IMG/VR virus record: IMGVR_UViG_3300044949_001773 | Coordinates: 62,001-126,000 of that record | Length of the DNA stretch: 64,000 nt | Source: a virus | Strand: one strand, 5' to 3' | Shown here: piece by piece, positions 1,538 through 62,982 of the stretch | How the letters are laid out: each line of letters starts with the position of its first letter | How positions within the stretch are numbered: the stretch's first letter is position 1 | The notes under the pieces: model-generated | What the model was told of the DNA's origin: nothing | The model's input: the letters and a program-made list of their open reading frames with translations, nothing else | The model's database searches: none | Translations under genes and position numbers: made by a program

Positions 1538-2257
1538 ATGCCTTTACCAACCATTGCGACTCCTACTTATGAACTTGAGTTGCCATCCACAGGAAAAACG
1601 ATTAAATATAGACCATTCCTAGTAAAAGAAGAAAAACTTTTAGTTTTAGCACTAGAATCGGAAGACATTAAAGAGATTTCTAATGCTATTACTGCTGTAT
1701 TGAAATCTTGTATTCAGACAAAGGGCGTAAAGGTAGAGACTTTACCCACATTTGATATTGAATTTTTATTTTTAAATATTCGCGCCAAATCTGTTGGTGA
1801 AGAAATTGAAGTTAATATTACAGCGCCTGATGATAATCAAACACAGGTTTTAGTAAAACTTAATGTTGATGATATAAAAGTACAGAAGAGTAAAAACCAT
1901 AATAAAACAATAAAACTTGATGATAGTCTAATGATGGACATGAAATACCCATCATTAGATCAATTCATTAAAAACAACTTTGACTTTACGGGAACTTCTT
2001 CTTTGAATCAATCTTTTGATTTGATCGCTTCTTGTATTGATAAAATTTATAATCAAGAGGAGGTATGGGTTGCTGAAGATGTTACTAAAAAGGAAGTTGT
2101 GGAATTTTTAGAACAGATGAATAGTAAACAGTTCAAAGATGTTGAACAATTCTTTGAAACTATGCCAAAACTATCTCATGAAATTACAATTAAAAACCCA
2201 AATACAGAAGTAGAAAGTACTGTTGTATTGGAGGGATTAACAAGTTTTTTCGCCTAG
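1538..2257 (+). CDS. gp26: Baseplate hub / tail assembly chaperone, gp26-like
   Basis: A 239-residue protein opening MPLPTIATPTYELELPSTGK, then RPFLVKEEKLLVLALES, the signature of the T4 gp26/gp51 baseplate family. In T4 gp26 is needed for hub assembly. Here it lies directly before two large tape-measure-like proteins, the place held in other tailed phages by the G tail-assembly chaperone. Its last codons run AGT TTT TTC GCC TAG, a perfect U UUU UUC slippery heptamer three bases before the stop. A -1 slip there would read on into the small frame at 2260-2439, giving a 300-residue fusion. Late promoter and GAGAGA site lie upstream. Family fairly sure; chaperone role inferred from position. Confidence 0.8.
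   Translation: MPLPTIATPTYELELPSTGKTIKYRPFLVKEEKLLVLALESEDIKEISNAITAVLKSCIQTKGVKVETLPTFDIEFLFLNIRAKSVGEEIEVNITAPDDNQTQVLVKLNVDDIKVQKSKNHNKTIKLDDSLMMDMKYPSLDQFIKNNFDFTGTSSLNQSFDLIASCIDKIYNQEEVWVAEDVTKKEVVEFLEQMNSKQFKDVEQFFETMPKLSHEITIKNPNTEVESTVVLEGLTSFFA
2245..2251 (+). promoter_or_regulatory. Candidate -1 programmed frameshift site (T TTT TTC)
   Basis: The heptamer T-TTT-TTC stands in the reading frame of the gp26-like gene as X XXY YYZ, the canonical -1 slippery form. After slippage the next codons are CGC CTA GGA ATG, leading in frame into the 59-codon frame at 2260. I see no strong downstream stem-loop, so efficiency may depend on the nearby stop or on the GAGGGA (about 2230-2235) acting as an internal Shine-Dalgarno sequence upstream of the site. 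Confidence 0.6.
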
Positions 2258-2259
2258 GA

Positions 2260-2439
2260 ATGGTATATATGGATTTGGAAAATTATTATAAAATAAATTT
2301 TTCTTTAATTCAATACCATAAATATTCATTATGGGAAGTAGAGAATTTGATTCCTTGGGAAAGAGACGTTTATGTTGCTCTTCTTCAACAGCATCTTGAA
2401 GACGAAAAATTAAAGTTACAGCAGCAACAGAATGGCTAG
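2260..2439 (+). CDS. Small extension frame, T-like tail chaperone tail (59 codons)
   Basis: ATG at 2260, two bases after the gp26-like stop, encodes 59 residues beginning MVYMDLENYYKINFSLIQ. The motif SLWEVENLIPWERDVYVALL, then a Gln-rich helix, resembles the T part of G/GT tail-assembly chaperones, which often ends with a proline, Glu/Arg and Tyr-rich helix. No Shine-Dalgarno lies at a normal distance from this ATG, which favours expression as a -1 frameshift fusion over independent starts. It overlaps the next gene by 8 bases. If fused, the product would be 238 residues from the upstream frame plus 62 from this one. Confidence 0.65.
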   Translation: MVYMDLENYYKINFSLIQYHKYSLWEVENLIPWERDVYVALLQQHLEDEKLKLQQQQNG

Positions 2440-5125
2440 ACCTAAAAATTTAAAAAAACTTTATGAATTAAAATTAGGAAAGGCTGTAGTATCCAAGCTT
2501 TCTGATGCTCAGCTTTCTACACTTTCAAAGTATTATAATTCTCTTTCTGACAAAGAAAAAGAAGAACTTGATGAAAAAATTTCTAAAGGATCTAAAAACG
2601 ATCTTTTAGAAATAGCAACTGGTATGATAGAAGAAAATGAAGCTGATGAACCTATCCCCGAAGGTTTGGATGATTTGTTGTCTGAAATAACCGGAAATAA
2701 AAAAGATAAGCAAGATCAAAAACAGAAAGATGAAAATGATAAATCTCCATCTCCTCCATCGGCATTAGCAACTATACCAAAAGAAGATAATCAAAAGAAA
2801 ACAGGAGAACAACAAGATACTATAAATGATGAAGATTTTGTAGAAGAAGAAATTGATTCAAGAATTCTGGATATATTGGGGATTAAAGATACTTTTGATT
2901 TGACTTATGGTGAATATAAAAGTCTCTTAAGAGAAAGGGCAACTGCTGCGTGGATAGGGGATCCTAATATATCAACAGAAAATGCTCAATTAATAGCCAA
3001 TGAGTTTAAGCGTGTAAAGAATAAAGAAAGTGATAAGAAGATTAAGATAAAGAAAAAGGTTGTTAAAGTAGAGGAGTTATTCAAAAGGACAGCAGGTCCA
3101 AAAAAACAACAACTAGATCCTAAAAAATTACTTCCTCCAGAAAAAACTGATAAAAAAGAAGACGCAGCACTTTCTCCTGAAAGAAATCGTGAAAGTAGTT
3201 TGAATAGAAGTTTATCTTCTATTTTGTCAGTATTAAATGATATTAAATCAATACTCAATGAACAACTATTGTCAGATAGCAAATCTCAAGAATCTTTAAG
3301 ACGAGAGTATCAAAAATCAGGAAGTAGAGAAAGAGAAGGTAGATTAGAGTCTAAAAAAGATAACTCTAATATAATAAAAGATCTTGCATCAAAAATAGAG
3401 ATACCATTTTTTGATCGCATTAAAAAATATTTTGGAAATATTTTTGCCGGTTCAGTTGTTGTTGGGTTATTGAATTGGTTGAATGATCCAAAGAATAAAA
3501 AAAGTGTAGATAATTTTAAAGAATTTTTTATTAATCAGGGTCCATTAATTCTTGGAGGAATATTAGCTCTTACATTATTACCAGTTGCTAGTACTTTATT
3601 GTCATTTAGTGCTGCAATTCTTGGCGGAGCAGCAAAATTGATATCTGCTATACCTTTGTTAAAGGCTGCCATAACTGGATTGGCGACAGCAGCTGCAATG
3701 TCAGCAGTAGTTGCTGCCGGAGCAATAATTCCTAAGATGTTTCCTGGTAGAGTGAATGAGCAAGAACGAAAAACTTTAAAGACTCTTGAGGAAAAGTATA
3801 AAGGTAATAAAGGGGAAATGGTAAAGGATTTGAAAAATCAGAAGAAAAATTTAAATTTTCTTCAAGTTATTCAAGGTGTCGGTAATGAAATTGATGAGCA
3901 AATATCTTTTTTAGAATCTGGAAGAACAAAAATGTATGGATCTACTGGAGAAGATTTAATACTAGAGCAATTAGAAAAACAAGGGCTTCCAAAAGATCAG
4001 TTAAATTATCTTAAAGAACTTTATAAACTTGATAAATCTCCAAAAGGATCAGAAAAACTTCAAACAGAAGCAGATAAGAAAAGAGCTCAAGAACTAAGTT
4101 CTATGACTCCTGAAAAACTAAAAGAACTTTTTCAAAAAGGAAAATCTCTTGATTTATTTAAGGCCTATAAAGGTGGAGATTCGGAATCTGTCAAAATACC
4201 TGGTTTAGGATCTATAGTTGCTGGAACTAACTGGTTTGGTGGAAGACAGCGTAAATATTTTGATGAGAATGGAAAAGAAATATCAGAAGAAGAGATGAAT
4301 CAAAAATATCGTCTTTATTCTGCCGTATTGGAAAAAAGAAAAAAAGATAAGCAAAAAGAAAAACCTCAAACACCTTCGGGTGGAGGGATGCCAGGACTTC
4401 CTCCAAGTGCCGCCCAACCTGGGACTGGACCTACTGGAAATTTAGTTGGGTCTAGTTCTATACCAAATCAAGCAGGGTTGCCGCCATTACCTCCAACAAA
4501 TACTTTACCAGGAAAGCAACATTATGGTGCTTCTAGAGATAATGGAACAAGAAAACATGCTGGTGTCGATTTTGATATTAGTGGAAATGAAAAATTTTAT
4601 AGTAGAATTGGTGGTGTTGTTGTCAGTAATCCATTTAGATATGGGGCTGATGGTTGGGGAATTGATATTTACAATCAACAGCTTGGTGTATATGAAAGAA
4701 TAGCAGAAGCTGCTAAAGTTTTAGTAAAAAAAGGACAAACAGTATCACCTGGCCAAGCGGTTGTACAGGGAGAAAGTGAAACTGGCGTTATTCATTATGA
4801 AATTAGGAAAAAGATTGAAGGTGGCTATGAAGGCACTTTAGATCCAATGGCATTTTTGGGGAATCCGACAAGACAAAATGGAACCCCTCCATCTGGCCAA
4901 ATAGCGGGAATATCCCCGTCCCAAGCTGCTCCATCAATAACTCCTTTCTTTTCATCTCCACTTATAATAACTGGACCATCTAAACCACAGGCCCAATCAG
5001 TTAATCCTCCCGGCGGCGGAAGTTCATCTAGTGCTAAACAAGCACCTGTTCCATCGTTCTCTTCGGAAGATCCTAATAATTTTACTACAATGGTAGTAAA
5101 AGGAATCTATAATGTGGTAGGATAA
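2432..5125 (+). CDS. Large tape-measure/hub-like protein with M23-like domain
   Basis: An 897-residue protein. Residues 1-330 are charged, Lys/Glu-rich and probably coiled coil or disordered. About 333-350 and 371-433 are strongly hydrophobic, with GSVVVGLL and a long Ala/Leu/Ile stretch, as in tape-measure proteins. About 700-800 is like an M23 (LytM) metallopeptidase: HAGVD (about 708-712) supplies the His and Asp zinc ligands and GVIHYE (about 784-789) the third His. The first His of the usual HxH pair, the catalytic base, is Val here. Its place after the gp26-like chaperone fits a tape measure or hub (gp29 counterpart). The segment IPFFDRIKKYFGNI is repeated in the next gene. Tape-measure role is inferred. 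Confidence 0.6.
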   Translation: MARPKNLKKLYELKLGKAVVSKLSDAQLSTLSKYYNSLSDKEKEELDEKISKGSKNDLLEIATGMIEENEADEPIPEGLDDLLSEITGNKKDKQDQKQKDENDKSPSPPSALATIPKEDNQKKTGEQQDTINDEDFVEEEIDSRILDILGIKDTFDLTYGEYKSLLRERATAAWIGDPNISTENAQLIANEFKRVKNKESDKKIKIKKKVVKVEELFKRTAGPKKQQLDPKKLLPPEKTDKKEDAALSPERNRESSLNRSLSSILSVLNDIKSILNEQLLSDSKSQESLRREYQKSGSREREGRLESKKDNSNIIKDLASKIEIPFFDRIKKYFGNIFAGSVVVGLLNWLNDPKNKKSVDNFKEFFINQGPLILGGILALTLLPVASTLLSFSAAILGGAAKLISAIPLLKAAITGLATAAAMSAVVAAGAIIPKMFPGRVNEQERKTLKTLEEKYKGNKGEMVKDLKNQKKNLNFLQVIQGVGNEIDEQISFLESGRTKMYGSTGEDLILEQLEKQGLPKDQLNYLKELYKLDKSPKGSEKLQTEADKKRAQELSSMTPEKLKELFQKGKSLDLFKAYKGGDSESVKIPGLGSIVAGTNWFGGRQRKYFDENGKEISEEEMNQKYRLYSAVLEKRKKDKQKEKPQTPSGGGMPGLPPSAAQPGTGPTGNLVGSSSIPNQAGLPPLPPTNTLPGKQHYGASRDNGTRKHAGVDFDISGNEKFYSRIGGVVVSNPFRYGADGWGIDIYNQQLGVYERIAEAAKVLVKKGQTVSPGQAVVQGESETGVIHYEIRKKIEGGYEGTLDPMAFLGNPTRQNGTPPSGQIAGISPSQAAPSITPFFSSPLIITGPSKPQAQSVNPPGGGSSSSAKQAPVPSFSSEDPNNFTTMVVKGIYNVVG

Positions 5126-5126
5126 A

Positions 5127-6872
5127 ATGTTACCAGTACTAGCATCTGTCGCATCATCTTTATTCAAATCATCTGATGATAAAAAAAAGAATGGTAAAGA
5201 GGTGTCTGATAAAATATTCAACAGGAAAACAATAGATTCTAAACCATCTGGGAAAGAAACTGAAAATAAAAGTTCCGCAATCGTAAAGGCTTCAAGAGGT
5301 TCAATTAAAACTATATCAGTAGATAAATTATTACCTCCCGGACAAGATCAATCTGAGCAAAGATCTACGCAGACTAATAGACCATCCTCAATTGCTTCCA
5401 TATTAAAATCTATAAGAAAAGTATTGGTTCAAATAAAAAATACATTAAAGAAAATACTTAATCTAAGGAAAAAATATACAGATTCTCTACGTATTACATC
5501 TAATAGAGAGCGTTTTAGAAAAGGGGAAGGTGAATTAGAAAAAAAACCAAATTGGCTATCTGGACTTGCAAACACTATTCCAAATGTACAAATTCCATTT
5601 TGGGATAAAATTAAACAATATTTTGGAAATATACTTATTGGATCTTTAGTTTTATTTTTATTAAAAAATATCAATTCTATTATTGATACAATAAGAAAGT
5701 TTTTTGAAATTTTAAAAAATATATGGGAAGCATTTAAGCCATTTGTTACTCCGGTATGGGATGCCTTTAAATGGATAGTCAGTGAAGGTGTAAAATTGAC
5801 CGCTAAAATAATGGGAGTCCCATCACAAGAAGCGGATAAAAATAAAGTGGTGGAAAATTTATCCGAAATACTAAAAAAAATTCCAAGCTTAAATGGGTTG
5901 TTTTTTGATATTGAAAATGCTATAAAGAATTTAATACCTGGAGGTGGTGGAGCAACTGGAGGAGAAGCAGCTGGTCAATTAATTCCAGGAGATGCGCCTC
6001 CAGAAATTAAAGCCTTAATGTCTACTATTTCTGGCGGTGAAGGGGGACCCAATTCTGTACAGGGAATTGGAGAGGTTCCGGGTCTTTCGGATATGACTAT
6101 AGATCAGGCAATAGCTAAAGCTAAATCTTATATTGGTAAAGGATCTGAAACTGGAGCATTGGGAGCATTTCAATTTCATTCCTCATATCTAAGGGAAAGG
6201 GCGGTTTCTGCAGGATTAAATCCGGCAATTGAAAAGTTTAGTATGGAAAATCAAATTAAAATAATGCGTAATTTTATGGCAGTTGTTTATGGAGAAGGTG
6301 GTGAAGTAAAACTATTAGAGTCATTAAAGTCTGGTGGATTACAAACTGATGTATTTCCAAAACTTTCTAGAAATCTTGGTTGGCCATCTTTACCTGGAGG
6401 TAGTCAACCTAATGTACACACGCCTCAAGCAGCTTCTAGATATCAAAAATATCTTCAAAAATACTCTCAAGGTGGGGGAACTATGCCTTCGCCATCAACC
6501 CCATCCCCAGCCCCAACACAATCTCCAGCACCAGCCCCAGCAGCTACTTTAATACCATCTGGCACGCCATCGCAAATATCTTCAGATAGCCCTAGTGATT
6601 CAATTACTGCAGCTGAAAAAATCGATACTGTTCAAATTCAATCATCCCAATCTCAAGCAAGATCTCCGGAACCTATTCAACAATATGCCAATTATGAAAA
6701 ACCATCACAAGGGCAAGGAGCAATTGTTTTATTACCCGGAAAATCTCAATCACCAATGCCGATGAACAGTGGTGGGGAGGGTGCCATGCCTTCCGTTACA
6801 ATTTCTCAAACTGACATATTAAATAGTTACTACAGAGCTCAATTAATGGGATTCTTATATAAACAAGGATAA
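5127..6872 (+). CDS. Second tape-measure/hub-like protein with lysozyme-like domain
   Basis: A 581-residue paralogue of the preceding protein: about residues 90-185 line up with it, including RERFRKGEGELEKK and IPFWDKIKQYFGNILIGS, followed by a hydrophobic helix. Residues about 295-450 resemble a lysozyme or muramidase: MSTISGGEGG puts a candidate catalytic Glu at about 305, and GALGAFQFHSSYLRERA fits the GxYQF segment of glycoside hydrolase-like tail lysozymes. A Pro/Ser/Ala-rich linker follows, then a C-terminal helix. The gene begins 1 base after the previous stop and overlaps the next ATG by one base, so expression is coupled. It probably supplies the cell-wall cutting that T4 places on gp5. 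Confidence 0.6.
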   Translation: MLPVLASVASSLFKSSDDKKKNGKEVSDKIFNRKTIDSKPSGKETENKSSAIVKASRGSIKTISVDKLLPPGQDQSEQRSTQTNRPSSIASILKSIRKVLVQIKNTLKKILNLRKKYTDSLRITSNRERFRKGEGELEKKPNWLSGLANTIPNVQIPFWDKIKQYFGNILIGSLVLFLLKNINSIIDTIRKFFEILKNIWEAFKPFVTPVWDAFKWIVSEGVKLTAKIMGVPSQEADKNKVVENLSEILKKIPSLNGLFFDIENAIKNLIPGGGGATGGEAAGQLIPGDAPPEIKALMSTISGGEGGPNSVQGIGEVPGLSDMTIDQAIAKAKSYIGKGSETGALGAFQFHSSYLRERAVSAGLNPAIEKFSMENQIKIMRNFMAVVYGEGGEVKLLESLKSGGLQTDVFPKLSRNLGWPSLPGGSQPNVHTPQAASRYQKYLQKYSQGGGTMPSPSTPSPAPTQSPAPAPAATLIPSGTPSQISSDSPSDSITAAEKIDTVQIQSSQSQARSPEPIQQYANYEKPSQGQGAIVLLPGKSQSPMPMNSGGEGAMPSVTISQTDILNSYYRAQLMGFLYKQG

Positions 6873-61950: not shown

Positions 61951-62982
61951 ATGGCGTTTTTAATTGGTTCAAATACGACAATTGATGATAGTAGAAGATT
62001 TATTGGAAATGGAACTAATTTTTTTGCAGGATCTCTTGCCGGATGTTCTATTAGTACTGGAGGCTATAATATTGCGATCGGAGATGCGGCTGGATGTAGA
62101 ATTAGTACACCATTTTACAATACTATTATAGGAAGAAATGCAGGAAATGCGTTAACTACTTGCGGTTTCAACGTTATTATTGGAGCATTCTCCGCGCAAT
62201 CTGGAAATGCTGGAATTCAAAACGTTTTTATTGGTAATGATACTGCGAATTGTTCTAATAGTCTTAATGTTGAGTCTAACGTACATATAGGAGCAAGGGC
62301 TGGATTCAGAACATGTGGTCGTAATAATGTTTTTATTGGTTATTATTCAGGATCAAGGTCTGATACAGCAACTTCTTGTTTTAATGTTGCTGTTGGAGAT
62401 GGTGCTTCAGGAAATATAACTACTGGAATATGTAATGTAACTTTAGGAGCTAATTCTGCAACTTTTCTAAATACAGGTTGTTTTAATACACTTATTGGGG
62501 TATCTTCTGGGTCTCGATTGTGTGGAGGAAATAATAATGTTCATATAGGATGCGCCGCAGGGTCATGTAGTTGTGGCGGATCTAATAATATTTACATAAA
62601 CAATTTAGGAAGCATTGGAACAACTTCAAATGAAACATGTATTGGAAATTCCTCAACAGCATCAACATTTACTTTTGGTAATTTCACTTCACAACTAAAT
62701 GTAACTGCGTATTCTGATGAATCACTAAAAGAAAATATTGAAAGAATACAAAATGCATTAGAAAAAGTTAGAAGCCTTGAAGGTGTGACTTATAATCGTA
62801 ATGATTCTCCAGATCGTCCAAGACATATGGGATTAATCGCACAGTGTGTTGAAAAAGTTATTCCAGAAGTTATTGGAAAAGTAGATGGAAAACTAACAAT
62901 TGCTTATGGAAACTTAATTGCTCTTGTCGTTGAAGCAATTAAAGAAATTGATGAAAGATTAGAAGTATTGGAAAGCAAATAA
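61951..62982 (+). CDS. Cysteine-rich YadA-like fiber with S74 chaperone (343 aa)
   Basis: 343 residues. About 20-235 has repeats of the YadA/Hia head form (N(I/V)xIGxxAG, FNVAVGDGASG, GGNNNVHIGCAAG), which wind as a trimeric left-handed beta roll. This head has 13 Cys, each near a turn, an odd number for a cytoplasmically made phage protein. About 250-343 is an S74 chaperone: YSDESLKENIERIQNALEKV with the Ser-Lys dyad, then HMGLIAQCVEKVIPEV. Self-cleavage is expected before SDESLK. Probably a short trimeric fiber. Confidence 0.8.
   Translation: MAFLIGSNTTIDDSRRFIGNGTNFFAGSLAGCSISTGGYNIAIGDAAGCRISTPFYNTIIGRNAGNALTTCGFNVIIGAFSAQSGNAGIQNVFIGNDTANCSNSLNVESNVHIGARAGFRTCGRNNVFIGYYSGSRSDTATSCFNVAVGDGASGNITTGICNVTLGANSATFLNTGCFNTLIGVSSGSRLCGGNNNVHIGCAAGSCSCGGSNNIYINNLGSIGTTSNETCIGNSSTASTFTFGNFTSQLNVTAYSDESLKENIERIQNALEKVRSLEGVTYNRNDSPDRPRHMGLIAQCVEKVIPEVIGKVDGKLTIAYGNLIALVVEAIKEIDERLEVLESK

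Follow-up and report, generated by a model that had tools for sequence, protein, structure and literature searches.

A gp26-like gene and the frame behind it

The window analysed here is a stretch of 64,000 nucleotides (positions 62,001 to 126,000) from a 131,809-base IMG/VR virus record, IMGVR_UViG_3300044949_001773. Near its start, it carries a gene related to gene 26 of phage T4, followed by a small open reading frame (ORF) of 59 codons. These two ORFs very probably specify one T4-like tail assembly chaperone made in two forms through a -1 frameshift; the slipping itself, its rate and the role in assembly are what we infer. This reading is based on a slippery site, its conservation, the phase of the downstream frame, coding in the -1 frame from the slip onwards and the homology of the full-length fusion to T4 gp51. 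The locus was compared with its relatives in a nearest set of 81 loci (80 contig relatives plus the window, 69–78% protein identity) and in a survey enlarged by three further scans to 239 assessable viral-contig loci, reaching about 40% protein identity; the survey loci are related and hence are not independent trials. The elements of the locus are the following:

1538–2257, + strand: gp26-like gene, putative short tail assembly chaperone (TAC-N, 'G'), 239 amino acids; PF12322 E=1.5e-73, phrog_150 3.6e-77; AlphaFold2 predicted local distance difference test (pLDDT) 88
2245–2251, + strand: slippery heptamer T TTT TTC, in 81/81 nearest loci (T TTT TTN in 239/239 loci)
2255–2257, + strand: short-form stop TAG, which the slip would bypass; TAG in 194/239 loci
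2245–2439, + strand: -1 frame, predicted C-terminal ('T') domain of the long form (TAC-NC); phrog_634 4.3e-27, phrog_150 columns 231-281; aligns with the T4 gp51 C-terminus
2260–2439, + strand: 59-amino-acid ORF, usually annotated 'gp51, baseplate hub assembly catalyst'; phrog_634; no near-slip start codon in 69/239 relatives

The gp26-like protein belongs to PF12322 (T4_baseplate, the family of T4 gp26 and gp51), with 247.5 bits against a curated cut-off of 24.5. Its ORF ends with AGT TTT TTC GCC TAG, which places the heptamer in the standard X XXY YYZ register and leaves three bases (GCC) between heptamer and stop, just as the first-pass annotation of this DNA had described. The same annotation had claimed that a -1 slip enters the 59-codon frame without meeting a stop, and this also proved correct: the -1 frame, which holds the 59-amino-acid ORF, is free of stops from about 60 bases upstream of the gp26 stop to 2436, and the predicted slip product, join(1538..2251,2251..2439), has 300 amino acids.

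Conservation and spread of the slippery site

The heptamer and the phase of the downstream frame are retained without exception in the nearest set. Across the enlarged survey, every locus has T TTT TTN and a -1 frame open from the slip, this frame being short in six of them solely because of contig ends; the heptamer is T TTT TTC in 167 loci, T TTT TTA in 49, T TTT TTT in 22 and T TTT TTG in one. T TTT TTA is the heptamer of HIV-1 gag-pol, and that of gene G of phage lambda, G GGA AAG, is unlike the T TTT TTC of the window. All 81 nearest loci have TTT TTC at the slip site. Of the 393 Phe-Phe pairs at other places in these contigs, only 36 (9%) are written in this way, and 12 form T TTT TTC. 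The serine codon that precedes TTT TTC in the nearest set is AGT or TCT, always ending in T, although the two belong to different serine codon families and more than one base must change to pass between them; in the wider survey, the preceding T is kept across AGT, TCT, GAT, AAT, GGT and GCT codons. In the same 81-locus alignment, the adjacent conserved Glu, Gly and Leu codons are free to vary at synonymous sites, so the synonymous freezing is local to the slip site. On these sequence comparisons, the slippery signal is almost certainly real and beyond what chance would give.

The frameshift phase also occurs in the phages Melnitz, Cr30, pf16, ACP17, P-SSM2 and P-HM2, in a Stenotrophomonas phage, in Vibrio phages and in Ackermannviridae. 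It is likewise present in Schizotequatrovirus PVA23, in phages of Sinorhizobium, Rhizobium and Agrobacterium, and in Straboviridae outside the T4 group (avDM12 and ZPAH1, an Aeromonas phage being among those that keep the phase). Ackermannviridae and some Vibrio phages have shorter slip runs, such as G GTT TTC and A CTT TTC. Relatives lacking the slippery site, or having the downstream frame in another phase, were looked for and none was found among the 239 loci and these divergent phages.

Coding in the -1 frame and start codons

In the 81 nearest loci, the six -1-frame codons between the slip and an ATG at offset +14 encode R-[IVL]-[AG]-[ML]-x-H. Judged from this conservation, coding in the -1 frame begins at the slip and not at an ATG. 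The prevalence of TAG as gp26 stop would follow if its final G also opened an Ala or Gly codon in the -1 frame.

The usual annotation implies instead that the 59-amino-acid protein is the product of a separate gene, translated alone from the ATG at 2260 or 2269 and coupled to gp26 termination. Both ATGs are present in the window, the second with AGGA 9 nt upstream, and two genes are annotated in most phage records, the downstream one being unannotated in several. This explanation is nevertheless very improbable. An ATG falls within the first 12 post-slip codons in only 138/239 loci, and the 69 relatives mentioned above have no ATG, GTG or TTG there, so that no consistent start site of its own can be assigned to the downstream frame. 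A separate gene would give no reason for the freezing of the slip codons; conservation of the protein sequence sets in at the slip, before the ATG is reached, and in T4 the gp51 protein is a fusion (see below). None of the 49 loci with an ATG at +5 has a Shine-Dalgarno (SD) sequence there (0/49), a weak point, which was dropped as evidence for frameshifting because the start of the next gene is also devoid of SDs (0/70).

It can also be proposed that both routes operate, the long form arising by frameshifting and the C-terminal domain being made alone from an internal ATG in some phages. The ATG at +14 is found in 78/81 nearest loci, and the annotation of T4 includes an internal-start product of gene 26, named 26'. 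Start codons are however absent in many lineages, which implies that a free C-terminal domain is not generally needed, and this dual scheme is considered unlikely, though less so than two separate genes. One relative (L012, 3708–3905) provides a natural test against independent initiation, having lost both usual downstream ATGs (TTA and ATA instead) while keeping the heptamer and the frame. The 59-amino-acid ORF is thus most likely the C-terminal domain of the long form and not a separate gene.

RNA signals around the slip

Two candidate signals flank the end of the gp26-like ORF:

2230–2235, + strand: SD-like hexamer GGAGGG, ending 9 nt before the heptamer and possibly stimulatory (inferred function); Glu-Gly codons conserved in 81/81
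2262–2275, + strand: hairpin site covarying in relatives (5 base pairs, AUAU loop), weak in the window

The hexamer resembles the stimulatory SD of dnaX. The corresponding SD-like motif GARGGN was rejected as evidence by itself: it is always present, because Glu-Gly is conserved.

In the clade of the window, five base pairs located after the stop (offsets 7-11 with 16-20, closing an AUAU loop) covary. Both sides are changed in 41 cells, compared with 8.8 in shuffles and lower values in slid controls, in a test that kinship can inflate. In the top covarying pair, a wobble base is matched with the first base of a codon, a pattern for which selection on the protein is no easy explanation. Other lineages have their own structures: phages related to P-HM2 carry a stable stem of 6 bp, spaced 5 nt from the end of the heptamer (median z -3.0), and long stems lie downstream of the heptamer in Cr30 and P-SSM2. 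The idea of a hairpin common to all lineages was rejected: it is strong in P-HM2-like phages, P-SSM2 and Cr30, and the window is among the cases in which it is weak or missing. Some lineages thus probably have a stimulator, which for the window is unproven. Tentatively, and with the odds rather against it, the short covarying hairpin around the internal CATATG of the window's clade might tune frameshifting or mask the internal ATG, so that the C-terminal domain would arise solely within the fusion, and different T4-like lineages would have evolved hairpins of their own at this place.

A rival reading is a slip of the RNA polymerase, rather than of the ribosome, on the T run, and the six consecutive Ts (up to seven in the T TTT TTT variants) would suit it. 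Such transcriptional slippage is hardly credible here, since the site keeps a phase-specific X XXY YYZ register in which the last base is mostly other than T (C in 167 loci, A in 49), the G GTT TTC and A CTT TTC sites are short runs, and the hairpins after the heptamer in several lineages fit ribosomal slipping better.

Relationship with gp26 and gp51 of T4

T4 gp26 (208 amino acids) and gp51 (249 amino acids) both match PF12322. In T4 gp51, a single ORF combines a gp26-like domain with the C-terminal domain of the 59-amino-acid ORF, and the frameshift fusion can be aligned with gp51 over its whole length. By sequence, the short gp26 and the long gp51 of T4 are paralogues. This paralogy and the alignment of gp51 with the fusion indicate that gp26 would be the short tail assembly chaperone and the 59-amino-acid ORF the C-terminal domain of the long form. 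The match of the small cyanophage 'gp51' to T4 gp51 is confined to the C-terminal fifth of the latter, and the shared name conceals that the T4 protein is a paralogue of gp26 to which this domain is fused.

Two copies of the PF12322 gene are found in T4 and RB43, and one in each of the 13 other phages searched, all of the frameshift type; the virus record of the window also has one. In T4, the short and long forms are thus encoded by two separate genes on opposite strands, whereas the window has a single frameshift gene. In a tree of the shared domain, 21 frameshift genes lie on one side of a branch (96/92) and T4-type gp26 and gp51 on the other. These data fit one duplication in the T4 group that replaced frameshifting, a direction deduced from an unrooted tree in which RB43 gp26 is a long branch. 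The genes of gp51 and gp26 in RB43 (L093, 2501–3794) are in tandem, overlapping and on one strand, and the T4 pair is divergent; the RB43 arrangement could be nearer to the original duplication. A review (PMC3004832) counts T4 gp26 and gp51 among the hub assembly chaperones and states that gp51 is missing from the final particle.

Tail-gene context and predicted fold

Two genes for tail proteins follow the chaperone locus:

2432–5125, + strand: 897-amino-acid tail gene with an M23 peptidase domain; its first 8 nt overlap the T frame
5127–6872, + strand: 581-amino-acid tape-measure-like gene; phrog_4200, phrog_58 and phrog_1272 at 1e-6 to 8e-6 (weak)

The first-pass annotation had called both of them tape-measure-like. 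This stands, on weak profile matches (1e-6), for the 581-amino-acid gene; what ties the 897-amino-acid gene to it is a shared 135-amino-acid segment (38% identity), with the M23 domain located C-terminally in the former. The shared segment suggests a duplicated tape-measure or hub module. A BLAST comparison of the tail genes of the window with the Cr30 tape measure gave no match. The same order, chaperone then tape-measure gene, is found in Cr30 (where the tape measure is annotated as such) and in lambda. The proposed G/GT-type chaperone arrangement is supported by the two ORFs upstream of a tape-measure-like gene, the heptamer and the conserved phase. The reading of the function as that of a chaperone follows from this gene order, from the two-form arrangement and from T4 gp26/gp51.

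Several observations weigh against this interpretation. The two -1-frame ATGs of the window, with AGGA before that at 2269, make some independent initiation possible there, and its copy of the hairpin is broken, with one mismatch, three G-U pairs and a poor fold (z=+0.7). The suggested homology of gp26 with the G chaperone is not visible at the sequence level, no homology being detected with lambda G (hhalign probability 0.1), and receives a hint only from the fold. The best PDB match of the predicted gp26 structure is the HK97 chaperone (2ob9_B, probability 0.54, not significant, E=2.0; root-mean-square deviation 2.8 over 62 columns), followed by 3fgx (0.23) and 3klu YqbN (0.15), with no E-value below 0.9; a relation to the HK97 tail assembly chaperone (gp13 type) is no more than hinted at by this model. 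A sequence search of PDB with the gp26 and T-domain profiles gave nothing meaningful, the gp41 matches being probably coiled-coil chance.

Model and comparison with known systems

The production of the two forms can be pictured as follows. Most ribosomes would stop at 2255 and release the 239-amino-acid short form (TAC-N, gp26). A minority would slip back one base on T TTT TTC (2245–2251), pass the stop and make the 300-amino-acid TAC-NC with its 60-amino-acid C-terminal domain. If the analogy with lambda gpG/gpGT holds, the tape measure protein would be coated by many copies of the short form and few of the long one, which would recruit the tail-tube subunits and then depart. This would give T4 genes 26 and 51, whose products have long gone under the names of baseplate hub subunit and hub assembly catalyst, a plain role as the two forms of the tape-measure chaperone. 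The small 'gp51' of the cyanophage and other records examined would be a fragment of a frameshift product, and annotation pipelines should join the two ORFs. One frameshift gene and two paralogues (the T4 group) are alternative means of fixing the ratio of two proteins, and the lineages that have the one or the other lend themselves to comparison as a natural experiment.

The abstract of Vladimirov et al. 2022 reportedly names genes 26 and 51 and is said to state that frameshifting is kept in several T4-like groups. The T4-like chaperones of that work, as far as its cited content goes, belong to the same gene family (gp26/gp51) and have short and long forms like those proposed here. PMC12846349 credits polyT slippery sites in T4-like TAC-N to Vladimirov, Gautam and Davidson 2022 (Virology 566:9-15), and PMC10885494 attributes to them the finding that some T4-like phages have one short copy of the gene and one long copy that is fused. 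The first-pass annotation regarded the arrangement as undescribed for T4-like gp26, which does not hold, since it was reported in 2022 according to these two citing texts. The finding is thus right and already known in kind, T4-like chaperones and their frameshift having been identified by Vladimirov, Gautam and Davidson, and the locus of this uncultivated virus is one more instance. What the present analysis adds is the wide survey, the recognition that 'gp51' is misannotated, and a downstream hairpin that covaries in relatives and is weak in the window.

A 2016 review described the G-T frameshift as widespread in long-tailed phages 'except T4', which was long the exception (PMC5009743). Lambda gpG/gpGT, and with it the set of Xu, Hendrix and Duda 2004, has short and long products as proposed for the window, without detectable sequence homology between lambda G and gp26. 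The chaperone of Vandenendeviridae and Andersonviridae (phage Adele) likewise has a conserved stop-free -1 frame and an invariant T-rich motif ending TAC-N, this motif being GTTTTT as against T TTT TTC in the window (PMC12846349).
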